From: Streptomyces sp. MST-110588 | GTDB taxonomy: Bacteria > Actinomycetota > Actinomycetes > Streptomycetales > Streptomycetaceae | NCBI RefSeq assembly: GCF_022695595.1 | Contig: NZ_CP074380.1 | Location: 6,144,001-6,208,000 of the forward strand | Direction: 5' to 3' | Length of the DNA: 64,000 nt | In this document: piece after piece, positions 28,341 through 37,066 of the stretch | Position numbering within the stretch: the first letter of the stretch is position 1 | Layout: the number at the start of each line of letters is the position of its first letter | Made by a program: the position numbers and the translations under genes | Notes under the pieces: model-generated | What the model saw: only the letters and a program-made list of their open reading frames with translations | Database searches by the model: none | Told to the model about the DNA's origin: nothing

Positions 28341-30395
28341 ATGGGCCGTAATGTCAGAGTGTCCGCACTGCTGGCCGGGTGGGCCGCGGGTGTGCTGCTG
28401 GCGGTGGGACTGCCCGCCACGGGGGCCGTGGCGGCGCCGGAGCCCCGGACCGACCTGAGGGTGCTGGTCGTGGCCGACGGCGGCGAGAGCACCGATGCCC
28501 TGCGTGGCGAACTGCGCGCCCAAGGGGTGCCGTACACCGTCGTGGACCTGACGAGTCCGAGCCGTCCGGTGATTGACGAGGCGTACCTGAGCGACACCGT
28601 GGACGGCCGCCCACGGGCCAAGTTCCAGGGTGTGGTGCTGCCGGACGACAACCCGTTCGGCTCGCCCGCCTCCTCCGAGCTAGCGGCGCTGGCGGCGTAC
28701 GAGAAGAAATTCGGGATCCCGCAGGTGGACGCGTACACCTACGCCCGCCCCGCGGTCGGACTGCGCACCCCGGACGACGGCGGATTCTCCGGCGTCCTGG
28801 ACGGCTTCGCCACCCACACCACCACCGCGGGCAAGGCCGCCCCCTTCGGCTACCTCGACGGCCCGGTGCCCTTCGCGGACGAGGACGAACAGGTCTCCGA
28901 GAGCTACGGCCACATCGCCCAGCCGCTGGCCGTCCAGCCCGAGGGCGCGAAGTTCACCACCTACCTGGACGCGGCGGTCCCCGGCTCCACCGCGCGGGGC
29001 TCACTGATCGGCGAGTACGCCCACGACGGGCGCCGCGAGCTGGTCGTCACCTTCTCGATGAACCGCTACCAGCAGCAGTTCCGGCTGCTGGCCCGCGGCG
29101 TCGTCGACTGGCTGACCCAGGGCGTCCACCTCGGGCAGAGCCGCAACTACTTCTCCGTCCACGTCGATGACGTCTTCGCGCCCGACGGCCGCTGGGACAC
29201 CGCGCGCAACTGCACCCCCGGTGACGACTGCCCGTCCGGCACCCCGGAGAACGAACAGATCCGGATGACCGCCGCCGACGCCGAGTACGCCGCCCGGTGG
29301 CAGCGCACCAGCGGCTTGACGCTCGACATGGTCTACAACGCCGGCTCCGGCGAGGAGTGGCGGTCCGAACACGGCGGCAGCGACCCGTTCGCCGACCGGC
29401 TGCTCGCCGACAAGGCCGCCTACCGCTGGGTCAACCACACCTACACCCACGCCTTCCTGGGCTGTGTGCAGGACACCTCCGTCACCCCCTGGCGCTGCGC
29501 CACCGACCTGCTGGGACGTACCCGCTGGGTCGGTCGGGCGGAGATCGACGCGGAGATCAGGCGAAACCACGAGTGGGGCGTGGCCAAGGGCCTGGACGTG
29601 GACGCCGCCGAGCTGGTCACCGGCGAGCACTCCGGGCTCAGGACCCTGCCGCAGCAGCCCGAGGACAACCCAAACCTCGCGCCCGCGCTGGCCGCGAACG
29701 GGGTGAGGTGGACCGCCAGCGACAACTCCCGGGAGTCCGCGCAGCGTCCGGTCGGCTCCGCGCTGACCGTGCCGCGCTACCCGATGAACGTCTACTACAA
29801 CGTGGGGAAGGCCGCCGAGGAGGTCGACGAGTACAACTGGATCTACACCAGCAAGGCGGACGGCGGCAGCGGGATCTGTGAGACCGACCCCAACTCCACC
29901 TGCCTGCCCGGTCCGCTGGACCCGGCCACCGGCTACGCCTCCTACATCGCCCCCAAGGAGGCGCATGCCGCCCTCGCGCATGTGATGAGCAACGATCCGC
30001 GCCCGCATTACATGCATCAGTCCAACCTCGCAGAAGACCGCATCGCCTACCCGGTTCTGGACAAAGTTCTGGCCGACTATCGGGGGCTGTTCGCCGAGGA
30101 CACCCCGGTGGTCAACGCGCGGCAGCGGGCGATCGGCCGTGAGTTGCAGCAGCGTGCGGCGTGGCAGCGGGCGCTGGACGCCGGTTCCGTGACGGCATAC
30201 AGAATTGGCGACACCGTCACCATCACGTCGCCGGAAGGCGTCGACGCGGCGGCTACGATGCCGGTGGGAACCAAACGACAACTCTCCGAGGGGACCGCGG
30301 ATTTCGGCAGCAGGTATGCCGGCCGGGTCTCGGAGTGGGCAGCAGCGCAGGCACCCGGAGCAGCGATCACCCTCAAGCTCCCGGCGACCGCCTGA
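28341..30395 (+). CDS. Secreted polysaccharide deacetylase, Agd3/CE18-like
   Basis: 684 aa with a signal peptide (MGRNVRVSALLAGWAAGVLLAVGLPATGAVAA, cleavage near 32). The first ~240 residues form a beta-rich N-terminal region (DLRVLVVADGG ... FQGVVLPDDNP). The NodB-like catalytic domain follows: metal/base motif SVHVDDVF (274-277 HVDD) and HTYTH (366-370), then TGEHSGL and HYMHQSN. The order and spacing resemble the fungal GalNAc-polymer deacetylase Agd3 and its bacterial relatives (family CE18), larger than ordinary NodB deacetylases. Likely role: removing acetyl groups from an exported amino-sugar polymer, giving it positive charge. First gene of a + strand cluster. Assignment to CE18 is recognition without alignment. 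Confidence 0.75.
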   Translation: MGRNVRVSALLAGWAAGVLLAVGLPATGAVAAPEPRTDLRVLVVADGGESTDALRGELRAQGVPYTVVDLTSPSRPVIDEAYLSDTVDGRPRAKFQGVVLPDDNPFGSPASSELAALAAYEKKFGIPQVDAYTYARPAVGLRTPDDGGFSGVLDGFATHTTTAGKAAPFGYLDGPVPFADEDEQVSESYGHIAQPLAVQPEGAKFTTYLDAAVPGSTARGSLIGEYAHDGRRELVVTFSMNRYQQQFRLLARGVVDWLTQGVHLGQSRNYFSVHVDDVFAPDGRWDTARNCTPGDDCPSGTPENEQIRMTAADAEYAARWQRTSGLTLDMVYNAGSGEEWRSEHGGSDPFADRLLADKAAYRWVNHTYTHAFLGCVQDTSVTPWRCATDLLGRTRWVGRAEIDAEIRRNHEWGVAKGLDVDAAELVTGEHSGLRTLPQQPEDNPNLAPALAANGVRWTASDNSRESAQRPVGSALTVPRYPMNVYYNVGKAAEEVDEYNWIYTSKADGGSGICETDPNSTCLPGPLDPATGYASYIAPKEAHAALAHVMSNDPRPHYMHQSNLAEDRIAYPVLDKVLADYRGLFAEDTPVVNARQRAIGRELQQRAAWQRALDAGSVTAYRIGDTVTITSPEGVDAAATMPVGTKRQLSEGTADFGSRYAGRVSEWAAAQAPGAAITLKLPATA

Positions 30396-30584
30396 CGGGC
30401 CCCGTCGAGCGCCCGGCACCGCCCGGCCGCCCGTCGGCACACGGAACGCACCACCGCGTCCGGACACCGCACCGCCCCGCGCGGAGGCTCCCGTGCGTCC
30501 GCGCGCACCCCACGTCCCCGAGACCAGCCACCTCCACGTCCCGCATCGCACCGCTCAAGCACTCGTGTTCCGGGGGGAACCGCC

Positions 30585-32192
30585 ATGAACGCCACGCTGT
30601 ACGAGGTAGGCCGCCGAAGTCCCGACCAGGACGGCCCGCAGCCCGGCGGGCACGTCACCATGCTCACCGAGGGCACCTACCCGCACGTCACCGGCGGCGT
30701 CTCCACCTGGTGCGATCAGCTCGTCCGGGGCATGCCCGAAGTCACCTTCCACGTCATCGCGCTGACCGGCAGCGGCCGGGAGCCGGTGACCTGGGAACTC
30801 CCGGAGAACGTCCGCCGGCACTCCTCCGTGCCGATGTGGGGGCCGCCGCCGGGCCGGCGCGGAGCCAGGCCCCTGTGGGGCCGGGAGCGCCGGCGCTTCA
30901 TCGACATCTACGAGCGCTTCCTGCTCTCCCTCCTGGACCCGCAGTCCTGCACCGATTTCGGCGCCGAGCTCTACCATCTGGCCGAACTGGCGCGCGAGGG
31001 ACGCCTGAGCGCCGCGCTGCGTACGGAAGCCGCACTGCGCTCCCTGATGTGGATCTGGACCCTGCCGCACACCGCCACCCGCGCGGCGGAGCCCACCGTC
31101 CACGACGCGCTGACCGCCACCGACCTGCTCGAACACGCCCTGCGCCCGCTGGCCGTACGGATTCCCGCCGACAGCGTGGCGCACTCCGTCAGCAACGGCC
31201 TGGCCACCCTCCCGGCGCTGGTGGCCAAAAAGTTCGACCAGGTGCCCTTCCTGCTGACCGAGCACGGCATCTACCTGCGCGAGCGCTACCTCGGCTACCG
31301 CTCCGGGGCCCAGCGCTGGCCCGTCAAGGCCCTGATGCTCGGCTTCTACCGCCAGTTGACCATCGAGAGCTACCGCGCCGCCGATCTGATCACCCCCTGC
31401 AACCAGTACAACCGGCGCTGGGAGGAGCGCGGCGGCACCCCTTCCGAGAAGATCCGTACGGTCTACAACGGCGTCGACCCGCACGCCTTCCCGCACGCCG
31501 GGGCCGAGCCCGACACCCCCACGCTGAGCTGGGCCGGCCGTATCGACCCCATCAAGGACCTGGAAACCCTCATCCGCGCCTACGCCCTGATGCGCAAGGA
31601 GGTCCCCGAGCTGCGGCTGCGGCTGTACGGGGGAGTGCCCAACGGCTGCGAGGAGTACCACGGGCGCTGCGAGAAACTCGCCGCCTCACTCGGCGTGAGC
31701 GACGGGGTGAGCTGGGAGGGCCGGGTCTGCGACGTCGCCGCCGCCTACGCGTCGGGCAGCATCGTGATGCTCTCCAGCATCAGCGAGGGCTTTCCCTTCA
31801 GCCTCATAGAGGCCATGTCCTGCGGGCGCTCCACCGTCTCCACGGACGTCGGCGGGGTGCGCGAGGCGGTCGGGGACGCCGGGCGGGTGGTGCCGCCGCG
31901 CGAGCCGGAGGCGATGGCCAAGGCCACCTTGGAACTGCTGCACGGAGGCTGGGAGATGCGCGCGGAGCTGGGCAGCCGGGCCCGGCAGCGGGTGATCGAC
32001 CAGTTCACCCTGCGCCGCTCCGTGGACGGGTTCCGTACGATCTACCGCGAACTGGCCGCCGGCGCTCCGGCCCGCCTCGCCGAGGAGCGCAAGCAGCGCG
32101 AGGAGAGGGACTGGACGCTCCAACTGCGCAGCCCCTGGTCCGCCCTCGCGGCGGACGGACCGGCCCTCGCGGCGGACGGATCCGCTGGATGA
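30585..32192 (+). CDS. pelF: PelF-type GT4 glycosyltransferase
   Basis: 535 aa with GGGGGGAACC before the ATG. PelF signatures: HVTMLTEGTYPHVTGGVSTWCDQLVRGMPEVTFHVIAL at the N-terminus and FLLTEHGIYLRERYL in the middle. The GT-B C-terminal domain has SWAGRIDPIKDLETLIRAY and the EX7E motif EGFPFSLIEAMSCG. PelF polymerises an amino-sugar from UDP-sugar in the cytosol; the fungal polymer uses a related enzyme. The C-terminal tail carries a short ALAADG duplication. Its stop overlaps the next start (ATGA), so the membrane protein is translationally coupled. Confidence 0.9.
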   Translation: MNATLYEVGRRSPDQDGPQPGGHVTMLTEGTYPHVTGGVSTWCDQLVRGMPEVTFHVIALTGSGREPVTWELPENVRRHSSVPMWGPPPGRRGARPLWGRERRRFIDIYERFLLSLLDPQSCTDFGAELYHLAELAREGRLSAALRTEAALRSLMWIWTLPHTATRAAEPTVHDALTATDLLEHALRPLAVRIPADSVAHSVSNGLATLPALVAKKFDQVPFLLTEHGIYLRERYLGYRSGAQRWPVKALMLGFYRQLTIESYRAADLITPCNQYNRRWEERGGTPSEKIRTVYNGVDPHAFPHAGAEPDTPTLSWAGRIDPIKDLETLIRAYALMRKEVPELRLRLYGGVPNGCEEYHGRCEKLAASLGVSDGVSWEGRVCDVAAAYASGSIVMLSSISEGFPFSLIEAMSCGRSTVSTDVGGVREAVGDAGRVVPPREPEAMAKATLELLHGGWEMRAELGSRARQRVIDQFTLRRSVDGFRTIYRELAAGAPARLAEERKQREERDWTLQLRSPWSALAADGPALAADGSAG

Positions 32193-33658
32193 GCGGCCCG
32201 CTGTGGCTGGTGCCGCCGGACCGGGAGGGCTCCGGCCGCCCCGACACCCTCCCGCACGTCCCGCGGCCCAGGCGGCCCGGGTGGGCCGCCCCCGACCCCG
32301 TCGACGAGCTGGCCGAGCGGATGGCCGCCCTGATCGCCGCCGCCGTCCACCCCGACGAGATCGCCGCCATCATCGAGTCCGACGGCATGAGCGACGATCA
32401 GATCCGGCTGACGTACGGGCGGGAGAACTCCTTCGCGCTGGCCGAGGAGCTCTTCGAGCGGATTCCGCGCAGCTACCCCGAGCCCGGCGGTGAGGGCCCG
32501 GACCCCTGGCGGGTCAGCCTGCTGGGGTGTCTGCTGCGCGCCCTGGTCTTCGCCATGCCGGGCCTGGCCTACGTCGTGGGCGCCCACCTGCTGACCGGGC
32601 CGCCGGACTCCCTCGGCCTGCCCGCAGGAACGCTTCCTGTGCTGGCGGGCGCGCTCACCGGCTGGATGTGGAACCAGGCGCTCGCCCACCGCGCGTACTC
32701 CTGGCTGGGGCTGGGCGACCGGTACGCCGCCGCCCGCGCCCTGGCGCTCGGCGCGCCCGCCGGGGCGCTGGCCGGCACGGCGGTCGCCTGGGCGGCCTCC
32801 GGCGTCGACGAGGACGCCGCCGGCGCGGTCCTCTTCGCCGTCGGCCAGGCGCTCTACCTCGCCGCCGCCACCACCCTCCTGGTCTTCGGCCACGAGAGGG
32901 CCCTGCTGTGCGCGCTGCTGCCGCTGGCCCTGGGCGCCGTGGCGGTGGCGGCCCTCCACCCGCCGGACGCCGTACGGACCGCGCTGCTCCTGCTGTCCCT
33001 GGCCGCCGCCACCGGGCTGGCCGCCCGCGCCGTACGGGGCCATCTGCGCGAGGCACGCCACAAGGGCGCCGGACCGCGGGCGGCGGCCTCCTTGCCGTAC
33101 GGGCTCTTCGGCCTGGCCACCGGCGTCCTGGTGCTGCACACCGCGCTCGGCGACGTACTGCGCTACGGCACCGGGGCCACGGTCGCGGCGCCCTCGGCGG
33201 TCGCGCTGACGCTCAGCATGGGGCCGGCGGAGTGGCTGCTGTACCGGTACCGCAGCAACGCCGTGGCCGGGCTGCGCGCCAGTACCACCCCCGCCGCCTT
33301 CTGGCGCGCCACCTCCGGCGCCCTGGCCCGCTGCCTGCTCGGCTACCTGGCGGTCCTGGCCGCGCTCGACGCCGCGGGAACGTTTCTGTGGCCGGACGGC
33401 CCGCCGCTGGACGCGGCCCGGCTGGGCGGTCTGCTGCTTTTGGGCACGGTCCTGTGGACCGCGCTGCTCCTCCAGGCGTTCGGCGCGGTCGCGGTTTCCG
33501 CCGTGGTGTGCGGCGCCGCCGCCGTGACCCAGACCGTGGTCCTGCTGACCGGCCCGCTCTCACCCGTCCTCACCCAGCTCATCGTCTGCGGCGGCGCCGC
33601 CCTGGTGCTGTCCGCCCTCGGCTCCGCCCTCCTGGGCCGGGCCACCGCCCACCGCTGA
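32189..33658 (+). CDS. Polytopic membrane protein of the exopolysaccharide cluster
   Basis: 489 aa. The first ~110 residues are soluble and helical (DELAERMAALIAAAVHPDEIAAIIESDGMSDDQIRLTYG). About 11-12 hydrophobic segments follow (from LLGCLLRALVFAMPGLAYVVGA to IVCGGAALVLSALGSALL). It overlaps pelF by 4 bases. Position and topology fit the export partner of PelF, the place taken by PelG in Pel operons. I see no clear PelG sequence signature, so homology is unproven. No PelD or PelE equivalent is nearby. Confidence 0.75.
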   Translation: MSGPLWLVPPDREGSGRPDTLPHVPRPRRPGWAAPDPVDELAERMAALIAAAVHPDEIAAIIESDGMSDDQIRLTYGRENSFALAEELFERIPRSYPEPGGEGPDPWRVSLLGCLLRALVFAMPGLAYVVGAHLLTGPPDSLGLPAGTLPVLAGALTGWMWNQALAHRAYSWLGLGDRYAAARALALGAPAGALAGTAVAWAASGVDEDAAGAVLFAVGQALYLAAATTLLVFGHERALLCALLPLALGAVAVAALHPPDAVRTALLLLSLAAATGLAARAVRGHLREARHKGAGPRAAASLPYGLFGLATGVLVLHTALGDVLRYGTGATVAAPSAVALTLSMGPAEWLLYRYRSNAVAGLRASTTPAAFWRATSGALARCLLGYLAVLAALDAAGTFLWPDGPPLDAARLGGLLLLGTVLWTALLLQAFGAVAVSAVVCGAAAVTQTVVLLTGPLSPVLTQLIVCGGAALVLSALGSALLGRATAHR

Positions 33659-33727
33659 CGCCCGCCCGCGGGCCGCGCCGCAGCAGCACGGTCCGCGGGC
33701 GGCCCGGCCCGACGGAATCGGCTCGCC

Positions 33728-34405
33728 ATGCTCCCCACCTCCCCGCCCCAGCGGCTTCTGGTCCCCCTGTACGAACACCCCGCCGACCGCCCGGAAGCCT
33801 GGCGCAGACTGATCGAGGCGGCGCCCGGCCTCTACGGCGTCGTACTGAACCCGTGCAACGGCCCGGGGCAGGCCCCCGACCCCGCCTTCGCCGAGGTCGC
33901 GGGCGCACTGCGGGCGGCCGGCGTGCGTCGGCTGGGCTACGCCGACACCGCCTACGGCCGCCGTCCGCACGCGGAGGTGGTCCAGGACCTGCTGCGCCAC
34001 CGCGACTGGTACGCCACCGACGGCGCCTTCTTCGACCAGGCCGCGCCCGGTCCCGAATTCCTGCCGCACTACGGCCGGCTGGCGGTCGCCGCCCGGGCCG
34101 TGGGCGCCACCACCGTCGTCCTCAACCACGGCCTCCACCCGCACCCCCGCTATCTGGACGTCGCCGACCTCCTCGTAACCTTCGAGGATGACTGGGCCGC
34201 GTACGAGAGCGCCGACGTCCCGCCCTGGACGGCCGGCCATCCGCCCGAGCGCTTCTGTCACCTGATCCACGGAGTCCCCGACGGCTGCGCCCGGGCCGCC
34301 GCCGAACTGTCCCGGCGGCGTGGCGCCGCCGTCCACTGCGCCGTCCCCGGCACCCACCCGCATCCCTGGGACGCCCTGCCGTCCTGCTTGGAGACCTACC
34401 GATGA
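33728..34405 (+). CDS. Spherulin-4 family protein, GH135-like
   Basis: 225 aa. TIM-barrel landmarks: LLVPLYEHPADRPEAW, YGVVLNPCNGPG, RRLGYADTAYGRRP, YATDGAFFDQ and LLVTFEDDWAAY. They match the spherulin-4 domain that includes the fungal hydrolase Sph3 (GH135), which cleaves GalNAc-containing polymer. DGAFFDQ is at the position of the conserved acidic DGIFFDE-type motif. There is no signal peptide, unlike fungal Sph3, so it may act in the cytosol or use another route. Overlaps the next gene by 4 bases (ATGA). Confidence 0.8.
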   Translation: MLPTSPPQRLLVPLYEHPADRPEAWRRLIEAAPGLYGVVLNPCNGPGQAPDPAFAEVAGALRAAGVRRLGYADTAYGRRPHAEVVQDLLRHRDWYATDGAFFDQAAPGPEFLPHYGRLAVAARAVGATTVVLNHGLHPHPRYLDVADLLVTFEDDWAAYESADVPPWTAGHPPERFCHLIHGVPDGCARAAAELSRRRGAAVHCAVPGTHPHPWDALPSCLETYR

Positions 34406-35304
34406 ACTCCTCGCCGCCTCCCTCCGGTCCGCCCGCCTGCCCGGTTCCGTCCCCGGCCCGTGCCCCGCGCCCGGCCCGGCGCCGACGGTCGCTGCCGGTC
34501 CTGGCCGCCGCCCTGCTCGCCCTCATCGCCGCCTGCGCCCAGGCGCCGAGCGAGGCCGCGCCCAAGCCGAAGCCGGACCCCCGGCCGGCCACCGGGGCCT
34601 CCGCCGGCATGTGGCGCCCCAAGCCCGGCGTCGCCTGGCAGTGGCAGCTCACCGGCCAGCTCGACTTCTCGGTCAAGGCCCCCGTGTACGACATCGACGG
34701 CTTCAACCGCAAGGCGTCCACCGTCGCCGACCTCCACCGCCGTGGCCGCAAGGTCATCTGCTACATCAGCGTGGGTGCCTGGGAGGACTTCCGACCCGAC
34801 GCGCGCAGGTTCCCCAAGTCCGTCATCGGGCGCGACAACGGCTGGGAGGGCGAACGCTGGCTGGACATCCGCAGGCTGGACGTCCTGCGGCCCCTGATCG
34901 CCAAGCGGTTCGACATGTGCCGCGCCAAGGGCTTCGACGCGGTCGAGCCGGACAACGTCGACGGCTACCTGAACAAGACCGGCTTCAAGCTCACCGCTGC
35001 CCACCAGCTCGCCTTCAACCGCATGGTCGCCAAACTCGCCCACGAGCGCGGCATGTCGGTCGGCCTGAAGAACGACATGGACCAGATCCCGCAGCTTCTC
35101 AAGGACTTCGACTTCGCCGTGAACGAGCAGTGCGCGCAGTACGAGGAGTGCGAGACGCTCAAGCCGTTCATCAAGGCCGGCAAGCCGGTCTTCCACGTGG
35201 AGTACGAGCTGCCGGCCGCGCGGTTCTGCGCCCAGACCCGCAAGCTGGGCTTCAGCTCGATGCAGAAGCGGCTGCACCTGGACGCCTGGCGCCGCGCCTG
35301 CTGA
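34402..35304 (+). CDS. Lipoprotein endo-alpha-1,4-polygalactosaminidase-like (GH114)
   Basis: 300 aa. An Arg-rich N-terminus (ARRRRS), hydrophobic segment and lipobox LIAAC put Cys45 at the mature end, so it is probably a surface lipoprotein. The GH114 TIM-barrel reads WQWQLTGQLDFS, VYDIDGF (Asp98), KVICYISVGAWEDFRPD, WLDIRRLDVLRPLIAKR and the catalytic-type FDAVEPDNVDGY (Glu182). The family includes fungal Ega3, which cleaves alpha-1,4-galactosamine. It would trim or release the cluster's polymer at the surface. Start fixed by coupling to the previous stop. Confidence 0.88.
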   Translation: MNSSPPPSGPPACPVPSPARAPRPARRRRSLPVLAAALLALIAACAQAPSEAAPKPKPDPRPATGASAGMWRPKPGVAWQWQLTGQLDFSVKAPVYDIDGFNRKASTVADLHRRGRKVICYISVGAWEDFRPDARRFPKSVIGRDNGWEGERWLDIRRLDVLRPLIAKRFDMCRAKGFDAVEPDNVDGYLNKTGFKLTAAHQLAFNRMVAKLAHERGMSVGLKNDMDQIPQLLKDFDFAVNEQCAQYEECETLKPFIKAGKPVFHVEYELPAARFCAQTRKLGFSSMQKRLHLDAWRRAC

Positions 35305-35373: not shown

Positions 35374-36233
35374 TCACCCCTGACCGAGCGCCAGCACCAC
35401 CAGCGCCGTCAGCCCGGCCGTCTCCGCCAGCGCGCCGAACACATCCCCGGTCACCCCGCCGAAGCGCCGCCGGCAGTGCCGCAGCAGCAGTTCGGCGGCG
35501 CCCAGCGCGGCCCCCGCCGCCAGCGCCGTGTGCAGGGCCCCGCCCGTACCCAGGGCCCCGTGGCGGCCGGACAGCGCGCCCGCGCCCGCGCACAGCGCCG
35601 CCACCACGAGCGCGACGGCCCAGGCCGCGCGCGGCGGGACGGCGCCCGCCACCGCCGCGCCCAGCCCCTCCGGGCGGGCCGGCGGCACGCCCCCGCGGCA
35701 GGCGAGGGTGAGCGCGCAGCGGGCCGTCACCGCCGCGAGGACCGCCGCGACCGCGCCCTGCGCCCAGCCCCGCGCGTACAGCTCGTACAGCGCGGCCACC
35801 TGGGCCAGCAGCGTGAAGACCAGGGTGAGCACGCCGAACGGGCCGATGTCGGACTGCTTCATGATCCGCAGCGCGTCCGCCGCCGGCTTGCCGCTGCCCA
35901 GCCCGTCGGCGGTGTCGGCGAGCCCGTCCAGGTGCAGCCCACGGGTCAGGGCGGCGGGCAGGGCGGCCGTGCCGACCGCGGCGAGCAGCGGGCCGGCCCC
36001 AGCAGGAGCAGCAGCGTGCCGAGCCCGGCCGCGCCCAGGCCGACGGCCAGCCCGGCCGCCGGCGCGCAGAGCATGCCGCCGCGCGCCGCCGCCCGGTCCC
36101 AGCGCGTCACCCGTACGGGGAGCACGGTCAGCGTGCCGAAGGCGAAGCGCAGGGCGTCCTTGCCGCTGAGGGAGGCGGGGGAGCCGTTCACCGCGTCGTT
36201 CACCGCGCCGTTGCCGTTCACCGCGTCGTTCAT
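35374..36233 (-). pseudogene. cobS: Adenosylcobinamide-GDP ribazoletransferase with a 1-base frameshift
   Basis: The start at 36233 gives MNDAVNGNGAVNDAVNGSPASLSGKDALRFAFGTLTVLPV, the CobS N-terminus with an odd repeated prefix. Near 35997-36000 (four C on the + strand) the frame breaks. Adding one base restores GPLLAAVGTAALPAALTRGLHLDGLADTADGLGSGK and IMKQSDIGPFGVL, the conserved CobS core, to a normal stop. The restored product is about 286 aa. CobS joins adenosylcobinamide-GDP to alpha-ribazole at the membrane. A sequencing error in a G/C run is as likely as true loss. cobT and cobU lie nearby. Confidence 0.85.
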
Positions 36234-36328
36234 CGCCGCAGGCTACCCCGCAGGTTCCCGCCGGTTCCGGGCAGTCCTGGAAGGGACGGCCGCTAAATTG
36301 CGCATAGGAGACAAACGGGAGTGCGTCC

Positions 36329-37066
36329 ATGGGTCACTGGTGGTACCGCAACGTCATCGAACCGGGGAAACTGCCGCTGCTCCTCGCGCTGGCCTCCTTC
36401 GTCCTGACCTTCGCGGTGACCCGTGTCATCACCCGCCTCATCCGCGCGGGCAAGGGCCCCTTCCGCAACATCACCCCCGGCGGCCTCCACGTCCACCACG
36501 TGGTGCCCGGCGTCGTCCTGATGGTGGTCGGCGGCTTCAGCGCGCTGGCGGGCGGCCGGCACGGCTACGGCTCGGGTCTGGCCGCGGTCCTCTTCGGGAC
36601 CGGGGTCGGTCTGGTCCTGGACGAGTTCGCGCTGATCCTGCACCTGGACGACGTGTACTGGACCGAGGAGGGCACCAAGAGCGTCGAGATCGTGATCGTC
36701 ACGGTCGCGCTGGTCGGTCTGATCCTGGCCGGTTTCTCACCCTTCGGCGTCAACGAACTGAGCGCCGAGGAGCTCCACAACCGTTTCCGTGTCGTACGGA
36801 CCGTGGGCGTCAACTTCCTCTTCGCCCTGGTCGCCCTCTTCAAGGGCAAGGGCCGGCTCGCCGTGATCGGCGTCTTCGTCCCCTTCGTCGCCCTGTTCGG
36901 CGCGGTCCGCCTGGCCCGGCCCAACTCGCCGTGGGCCAGGCGCTTCTACCGCCGCCGGCCCAAGGCCAGGGCCCGGGCCAAGGTGCGGGCCTACCGCCAC
37001 GACCGGCGCTGGTCCCGGCTGCGCCGCCGCGTCCAGTACGTCATCGGAGGCGCCCCGAACCGCTGA
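36329..37066 (+). CDS. Conserved integral membrane protein
   Basis: 245 aa with GGGAG seven bases before the ATG. Membrane segments lie at about 17-38 (LLLALASFVLTFAVTRVITRLI), 58-75 (VPGVVLMVVGGFSALAG), 83-102 and 118-138, and 165-200. A conserved-looking GLHVHHVVPGVVLM has a His cluster at the membrane face and VLDEFALILHLDDVYWTEEG is acidic. The tail is very basic (RRFYRRRPKARARAKVRAYRHDRRW). Function unknown. It is convergent with the next gene, and the two 3' ends share a 16-bp direct repeat (GGCGCCCCGAACCG core). Confidence 0.8.
   Translation: MGHWWYRNVIEPGKLPLLLALASFVLTFAVTRVITRLIRAGKGPFRNITPGGLHVHHVVPGVVLMVVGGFSALAGGRHGYGSGLAAVLFGTGVGLVLDEFALILHLDDVYWTEEGTKSVEIVIVTVALVGLILAGFSPFGVNELSAEELHNRFRVVRTVGVNFLFALVALFKGKGRLAVIGVFVPFVALFGAVRLARPNSPWARRFYRRRPKARARAKVRAYRHDRRWSRLRRRVQYVIGGAPNR

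Follow-up and report, generated by a model that had tools for sequence, protein, structure and literature searches.

A Streptomyces gene cluster resembling Pel and galactosaminogalactan systems as a candidate source of an amino-sugar surface polymer

In a 64-kb window (C1:6144001-6208000) of the Streptomyces sp. MST-110588 genome, which is a single contig of 7.9 Mb, we analyzed five consecutive plus-strand genes, here called A to E (Table 1). The balance of probability leans slightly towards a cluster that makes a partly deacetylated amino-sugar surface polymer, resembling bacterial Pel and fungal galactosaminogalactan (GAG), from a UDP-N-acetylhexosamine (UDP-HexNAc), most likely UDP-N-acetylgalactosamine (UDP-GalNAc). 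A first-pass annotation of the window had described five open reading frames (ORFs) with near-overlapping neighbors, and these are indeed present: the overlaps B/C and D/E are each 4 nt long, C and D are separated by 69 nt, and A and B by 189 nt. Since the same gene order recurs in other strains, a chance run of ORFs is ruled out.

The reading builds on gene B, rightly recognized in the first pass as a PelF-type GT4. It matches the NCBIfam equivalog NF038011 (PelF) over residues 24-487 with 169 bits (cut-off 100) and DUF3492 (PF11997) with 191.4 bits, above the curated cut-off. GT4 enzymes employ retaining chemistry. Gene A contains the previously noted HVDD motif and, within NHTYTH, the HTYTH motif (D276, D277, H366 and H370). 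Its residues D276/D277, H366/H370, R479 and H559 align with D377/D378, H510/H514, R613 and H668, described as the four CE18 catalytic motifs of Agd3 (PMC7229062). In the profile of A's family (A3, 19 rows), D276, D277, H366, H370 and H559 are invariant and R479 is at least 90% conserved. Furthermore, this profile finds Agd3 in the PDB at E 3.1e-28, phmmer with A alone giving no PDB match at E 1, and the predicted fold of A matches Agd3 across its three domains. A is thus presumed to be an Agd3-like deacetylase, which may act on α-1,4-GalNAc chains.

Both hydrolase-like proteins of the initial annotation, a GH114-like lipoprotein (E) and a GH135-like protein (D), were recovered. Gene E matches PF03537 (GH114) with 295 bits, above the curated cut-off, aligns with the Ega3 structure 6oj1 (E 2.4e-60) and retains Asp189/Glu247 of Ega3 as Asp184/Glu242, counted from the alignment. 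Its lipobox cysteine is Cys45; by eye, a cysteine follows a hydrophobic stretch in 24 of 25 E-like frames, two of the 24 having this stretch cut by the search range, and the remaining frame has no anchor motif. Gene D matches PF12138 (Spherulin4) with 109 bits (cut-off 30.2) and aligns with the Sph3 structure 5c5g (E 1.1e-12). Sph3 residues appear as Asp-166, Glu-167 and Glu-222 in one paper (PMC10485009), and the nucleophile is printed as Asp196 in another (PMC12054363); our alignment agrees with number 166, not 196. Asp103 and Glu153 of D correspond to Sph3 Asp166 and Glu222, and the position of Sph3 Glu167 is occupied by Gln104. The proposed likeness of the set to Agd3, PelF, Sph3 and Ega3 therefore holds by sequence, for A also by fold, with catalytic residues kept. 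Characterized GH114 and GH135 enzymes act on chains of galactosamine (GalN) and GalNAc (PMC12054363), and UDP-GalNAc is the substrate of PelF in Pel systems (PMC12345266). Because of these known substrates, GalNAc is the most likely sugar.

Gene C, whose ATG overlaps the end of B, had been annotated as a protein with about 12 transmembrane (TM) segments. In agreement, its predicted model shows 12 helices of at least 20 residues in a MOP-superfamily-like fold, subject to the cautions that apply to helical models. A MOP-superfamily-like fold with about 12 helices is ascribed to PelG, and C may share it. In sequence, C has no Pfam match at E 0.1, PF16933 (PelG) included, and no NCBIfam match; hhalign of C against PelG returned a probability of 0.1, a weak test because PelG was represented by only two rows, 87% identical. 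Simple gene calling by third-position GC picks up A, B, D and E and misses C, which we count as a gene because it is conserved: 1363 of the 7995 candidates scored are homologues at E 0.001 or better. With all score tiers counted, 59 of 61 evenly drawn Streptomyces genomes have a C-like match. Low-scoring matches concentrate at profile positions of roughly 15-150, and in a paralogue, C2, it is the N-terminal segment of C that is matched best. From the model, we infer that C is the polymer exporter.

In the mechanism we propose, general metabolism would supply the precursor, which B would polymerize at the cytoplasmic face. C would take PelG's part and move the chain through the membrane. Outside, A, secreted and metal dependent, would take off acetyl groups, and E, anchored as a lipoprotein to the membrane's outer face, would cut deacetylated stretches and so trim or release chains. 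D, lacking an export signal, would cut acetylated chains that have stalled or gone astray in the cytosol, either clearing or sizing them. Alternatively, the product of B and C could be a short amino-sugar chain, made and flipped while lipid-linked and then attached to the wall, giving a wall glycopolymer instead of a free polysaccharide. This appears quite improbable, as the five genes include no lipid-carrier phosphoglycosyltransferase or ligase and PelF systems count as synthase-dependent (PMC7112168). Still less credible is that the set attacks foreign GalNAc polymers, such as fungal GAG or bacterial Pel, and makes none. A and E do carry export signals, relatives of both act on such polymers by modification or cleavage, and endogalactosaminidase secretion has been reported for Streptomyces griseus (PMC7229062); however, A, D and E share one overlapping run with PelF and C, no export signal is seen in D, and the order is kept as a single unit in most relatives. 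A purely degradative set is rejected because PelF and C belong to the core.

The deacetylase occurs in 33 of the 61 Streptomyces genomes and in 8 of 246 genomes of the phylum, four of these eight outside Streptomyces. When the best 80 of 541 relatives in a survey of GTDB species genomes were kept, one was from outside Streptomyces (Actinacidiphila), and 69 of the 80 had at least 5 kb after A. With gene order called on the same strand only and with score limits that we set, these 69 loci read ABCDE (46), ABCD (11), ABC followed by LegB-like, nucleotidyltransferase and SDR2 genes (5), ABCE (3), ABC (1) and A alone (3). A-B-C order is hence kept in 66 of 69 loci, 65 of the 66 also containing D, E or sugar genes, and D and E are each absent from some. 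S. hiroshimensis (L190) is among the strains with the sugar-gene form. Besides the window, we fetched 33 Streptomyces loci, which take two forms. The 19 compact loci include 13 with ABCDE, four without E, one without D and one cut by a contig end, while the 14 extended loci have extra genes between C and D. In a PelF tree of 57 rows, the compact (19 rows; 100/99), extended (14; 94/85) and paralogue (21; 100/100) sequences each form one group; compact and extended are sisters (89/70), and G204, a genome of another family, falls outside both. Compact and extended clusters occur together in G128 (L086 and L087) and also in G251, G278 and G282, so they are probably not redundant. In the extended cluster L079, the deacetylase frame is only partly matched (102 bits) and may be a broken gene.

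Several observations weigh against a Pel- and GAG-like GalNAc polymer made in this manner. Gene A scores 17.6 bits with Pfam PF25115 (Agd3_CE), below the curated cut-off of 27.6, which is a working threshold and not a chemical definition; 2 of 120 listed homologues of A carry this domain. The CE18 membership that the first pass expected is thus supported by the four motifs, the Agd3 fold and the profile match but not by the Pfam score, and we therefore name A Agd3-like. The suggestion, taken from the Sph3 comparison, that D is simply a secreted hydrolase was not borne out, since D has no export signal. In 52 of 55 D relatives, the residues ahead of the barrel are not hydrophobic, and D is therefore most likely cytosolic, judged by sequence. 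The three exceptions are L084 and L085, with real export signals, and L079, a read-through before the likely start; weakly informative are L087 and L105, in which the alignment starts no earlier than profile position 55, and L065 and L066, with fewer than 12 residues upstream. Finally, while a Pel/GAG-like system is still the best reading, the GalNAc part of the initial claim is weakened because the sister clade carries an apparent 6-deoxy amino-sugar pathway.

The insert of the extended form, read in L070, L072 and L076 and scanned in L070, consists of genes for a LegB-like dehydratase, a nucleotidyltransferase and SDR2, hinting at a candidate 6-deoxy amino-sugar pathway. The same machine might then use another sugar, an NDP-6-deoxy-N-acetylhexosamine (N-acetylfucosamine or N-acetylquinovosamine) made by the nucleotidyltransferase, a LegB-like 4,6-dehydratase and an RMD-like reductase, for which the compact clade would draw on genes elsewhere; we regard this as unlikely, though worth weighing. 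LegB acts on GDP-N-acetylglucosamine. The LegB-like protein has SETYG preceding YAASK and scores 458.8 bits with TIGR04180, yet stays below the cut-off of 475; the best PDB match of SDR2 is 2pk3, a GDP-6-deoxy-D-lyxo-4-hexulose reductase (E 1.1e-17), yet SDR2 could be an epimerase. SDR2-like genes are present in 14 of 14 extended loci and 21 of 21 paralogous modules (query included), but in 0 of 20 compact loci (window included), and all three sugar genes are absent from the window's clade. Close LegB-like genes (at least 598 bits) were found in 14 of the 61 Streptomyces genomes, 13 between C and D of fetched extended loci and the 14th (G261) adjoining C. Twelve further genomes have distant LegB-like genes only (about 51-55% identical), and some of these genomes have no such cluster (e.g. 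G253 and G263). Two distant LegB-like genes lie in the source genome itself, one at C1:2357712 (53%) and one at C1:1501956 (44%); next to the second is a nucleotidyltransferase gene, likewise distant, at C1:1503050 (36%). The GalN/GalNAc substrates of characterized GH114 and GH135 enzymes (PMC12054363) also argue against a 6-deoxy sugar.

G204 has the order A-B-C-nucleotidyltransferase-SDR2, which fits the 6-deoxy alternative. Because this outgroup holds sugar genes, the compact clade would most simply have lost them, an argument that relies on one long-branch outgroup. After A-B-C, G204 (L083:13458-16613) encodes a nucleotidyltransferase, then an SDR2-like protein that lacks YxxxK, then an NDP-sugar dehydrogenase, a hint of a different modified sugar. 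Close relatives of the cluster's nucleotidyltransferase were also seen at G246:C91:19415-20113 (63%) and G287:C4:239583-240290 (73%) with no extended cluster seen, the former about 1 kb from a C2-like match.

A paralogous module, B2-C2-SDR2-D2, has neither deacetylase nor GH114. In its spherulin-4 protein, D2, the acid/base Glu is kept in 0 of 20 sequences and the Asp in 15 of 20, and both residues are kept in 19 of 19 compact D, 14 of 14 extended D and two distant copies. A more far-reaching proposal, on which we would place little weight, is that streptomycetes have a Pel/GAG-type branch of their own, in which C is an exporter unrelated to PelG in sequence, a cytosolic GH135 clears or sizes chains, and the Glu-less paralogous spherulin-4 serves as a non-enzymatic chain-binding partner. 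The ancestral polymer would consist of a dedicated 6-deoxy amino sugar made by the in-cluster nucleotidyltransferase, LegB-like dehydratase and reductase, whose genes were lost in the compact clade. Far from the cluster, L009:4862-8017 encodes a 1051-aa protein that combines domains of the GDSL lipase, spherulin-4 and fibronectin type III types.

Seven genes neighboring the cluster were scanned. Upstream of A, the minus strand carries genes for an acyltransferase, a lipoamide dehydrogenase-type protein and an M17 aminopeptidase; E is followed by CobS, an ORF without match, a lysyl-phosphatidylglycerol synthase-like gene and CobU (minus strand).

Table 1. Coordinates of the cluster, its surroundings and related loci (unprefixed positions are those of the window)
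Feature	Position	Strand	Description
Gene A	28341..30395	+	684-aa Agd3-like (CE18-like) polysaccharide deacetylase, secreted, N terminus resembling a signal peptide
Gene B	30585..32192	+	PelF-type GT4 (DUF3492 + GT group 1), 535 aa, presumed polymerase
Gene C	32189..33658	+	12-helix membrane protein, 489 aa, predicted MOP-superfamily-like fold, presumed polymer exporter (PelG role)
N-terminal helical segment of C	32297..32461	+	residues 37-91, before first membrane helix (DSSP of model)
Gene D	33728..34405	+	spherulin-4/GH135-like, 225 aa, no export signal
Gene E	34402..35304	+	GH114 lipoprotein, 300 aa
CobS	35374-36330	-	
ORF beside CobS	36329-37066	+	245 aa, third-position GC high, no Pfam match
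B2-C2-SDR2-D2 module, source genome	L008:6295-12201 (within C1 2593001-2612000)	-	PelF-C-SDR2-spherulin-4
Sugar-gene insert of extended cluster	L070:8191-10875		LegB-like dehydratase, nucleotidyltransferase (PF00483), RMD-like SDR
pel operons with Agd3-like gene	L084:1993-11139 and L085:1915-11024		true PelG

If the proposed polymer is real, about half of Streptomyces (33 of 61 genomes) would encode a Pel/GAG-like cationic polymer that could govern pellet formation and attachment, for example in S. rimosus and S. lincolnensis, relatives having been found in records of both. Side by side, the compact, extended and paralogous forms offer a natural experiment on the sugar used by PelF-type synthases, and an unexported GH135 makes it testable why synthesis in Aspergillus needs Sph3, a hydrolase (PMC11356417).

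Compared with the fungal GAG cluster (Uge3, Gtb3, Agd3, Sph3 and Ega3), ours shares the Agd3-, Sph3- and Ega3-like enzymes and a synthase, but B and C are separate where fungi have the putative transmembrane glycosyltransferase Gtb3 (PMC4817252), and D has no counterpart of the N-terminal TM segment of Sph3 (PMC11356417). A gene like the epimerase Uge3 is missing: as first annotated, no UDP-sugar epimerase is present, Pfam and NCBIfam scans revealing no UDP-hexose/HexNAc 4-epimerase among A to E. Outside the cluster, the source genome has two GalE genes above cut-off, whose products may convert UDP-N-acetylglucosamine. With the Gram-positive pelDEA(DA)FG operons (PMC7112168), the cluster shares PelF, an adjoining multi-helix membrane protein and a deacetylase; here, however, the deacetylase is Agd3-like, and GH114 and GH135 replace the PelA-type hydrolase. 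A search confined to A-E and the seven scanned neighbors found neither the c-di-GMP receptor PelD nor PelE, and a complete Pel operon is rejected, as by sequence the cluster contains none of PelD, PelE and PelG.

In two distant Actinomycetota (G041 and G011), PelF-like, PelG (470.6 and 459 bits) and Agd3-like genes are consecutive. Since the Agd3-like gene directly follows a PelF-like gene and a true PelG, Agd3-type enzymes can accompany a Pel synthase, which links both kinds of system. The Agd3-like protein of L084 (G041), the one of these loci scanned with Pfam, scores 85.8 bits, above the cut-off. GAF/GGDEF and HEAT/TPR proteins, labelled PelD- and PelE-like by domain and place, precede the PelF-like gene in G041; in both loci a short STAS-like ORF, identified by eye, follows the Agd3-like gene, and an exported spherulin-4 gene lies on the other strand.

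Closest are the agd3 operons that Bamford et al. 2020 (PMC7229062) reported from bacteria; of the 35 bacterial species in their tree, 30 have agd3 within or close to operons of predicted carbohydrate enzymes. These operons share with our cluster an Agd3-like deacetylase, a glycosyltransferase of the cytoplasm, a membrane protein with multiple spans and GH114; some Actinobacteria add spherulin-4. PelF, present in our cluster, has no occurrence in the main text of that paper, and its relevant sections give no membrane-protein fold, spherulin-4 location, paralogous module or added sugar genes. Our literature search, which covered few subscription journals and left most titles unopened, met no paper on such a Streptomyces cluster. 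The cluster belongs to the kind of operon described in 2020, and so the kind is not new; our analysis adds the three nucleotide-sugar genes of the sister clade, the cytosolic-looking D and the paralogous module with its Glu-less spherulin-4.

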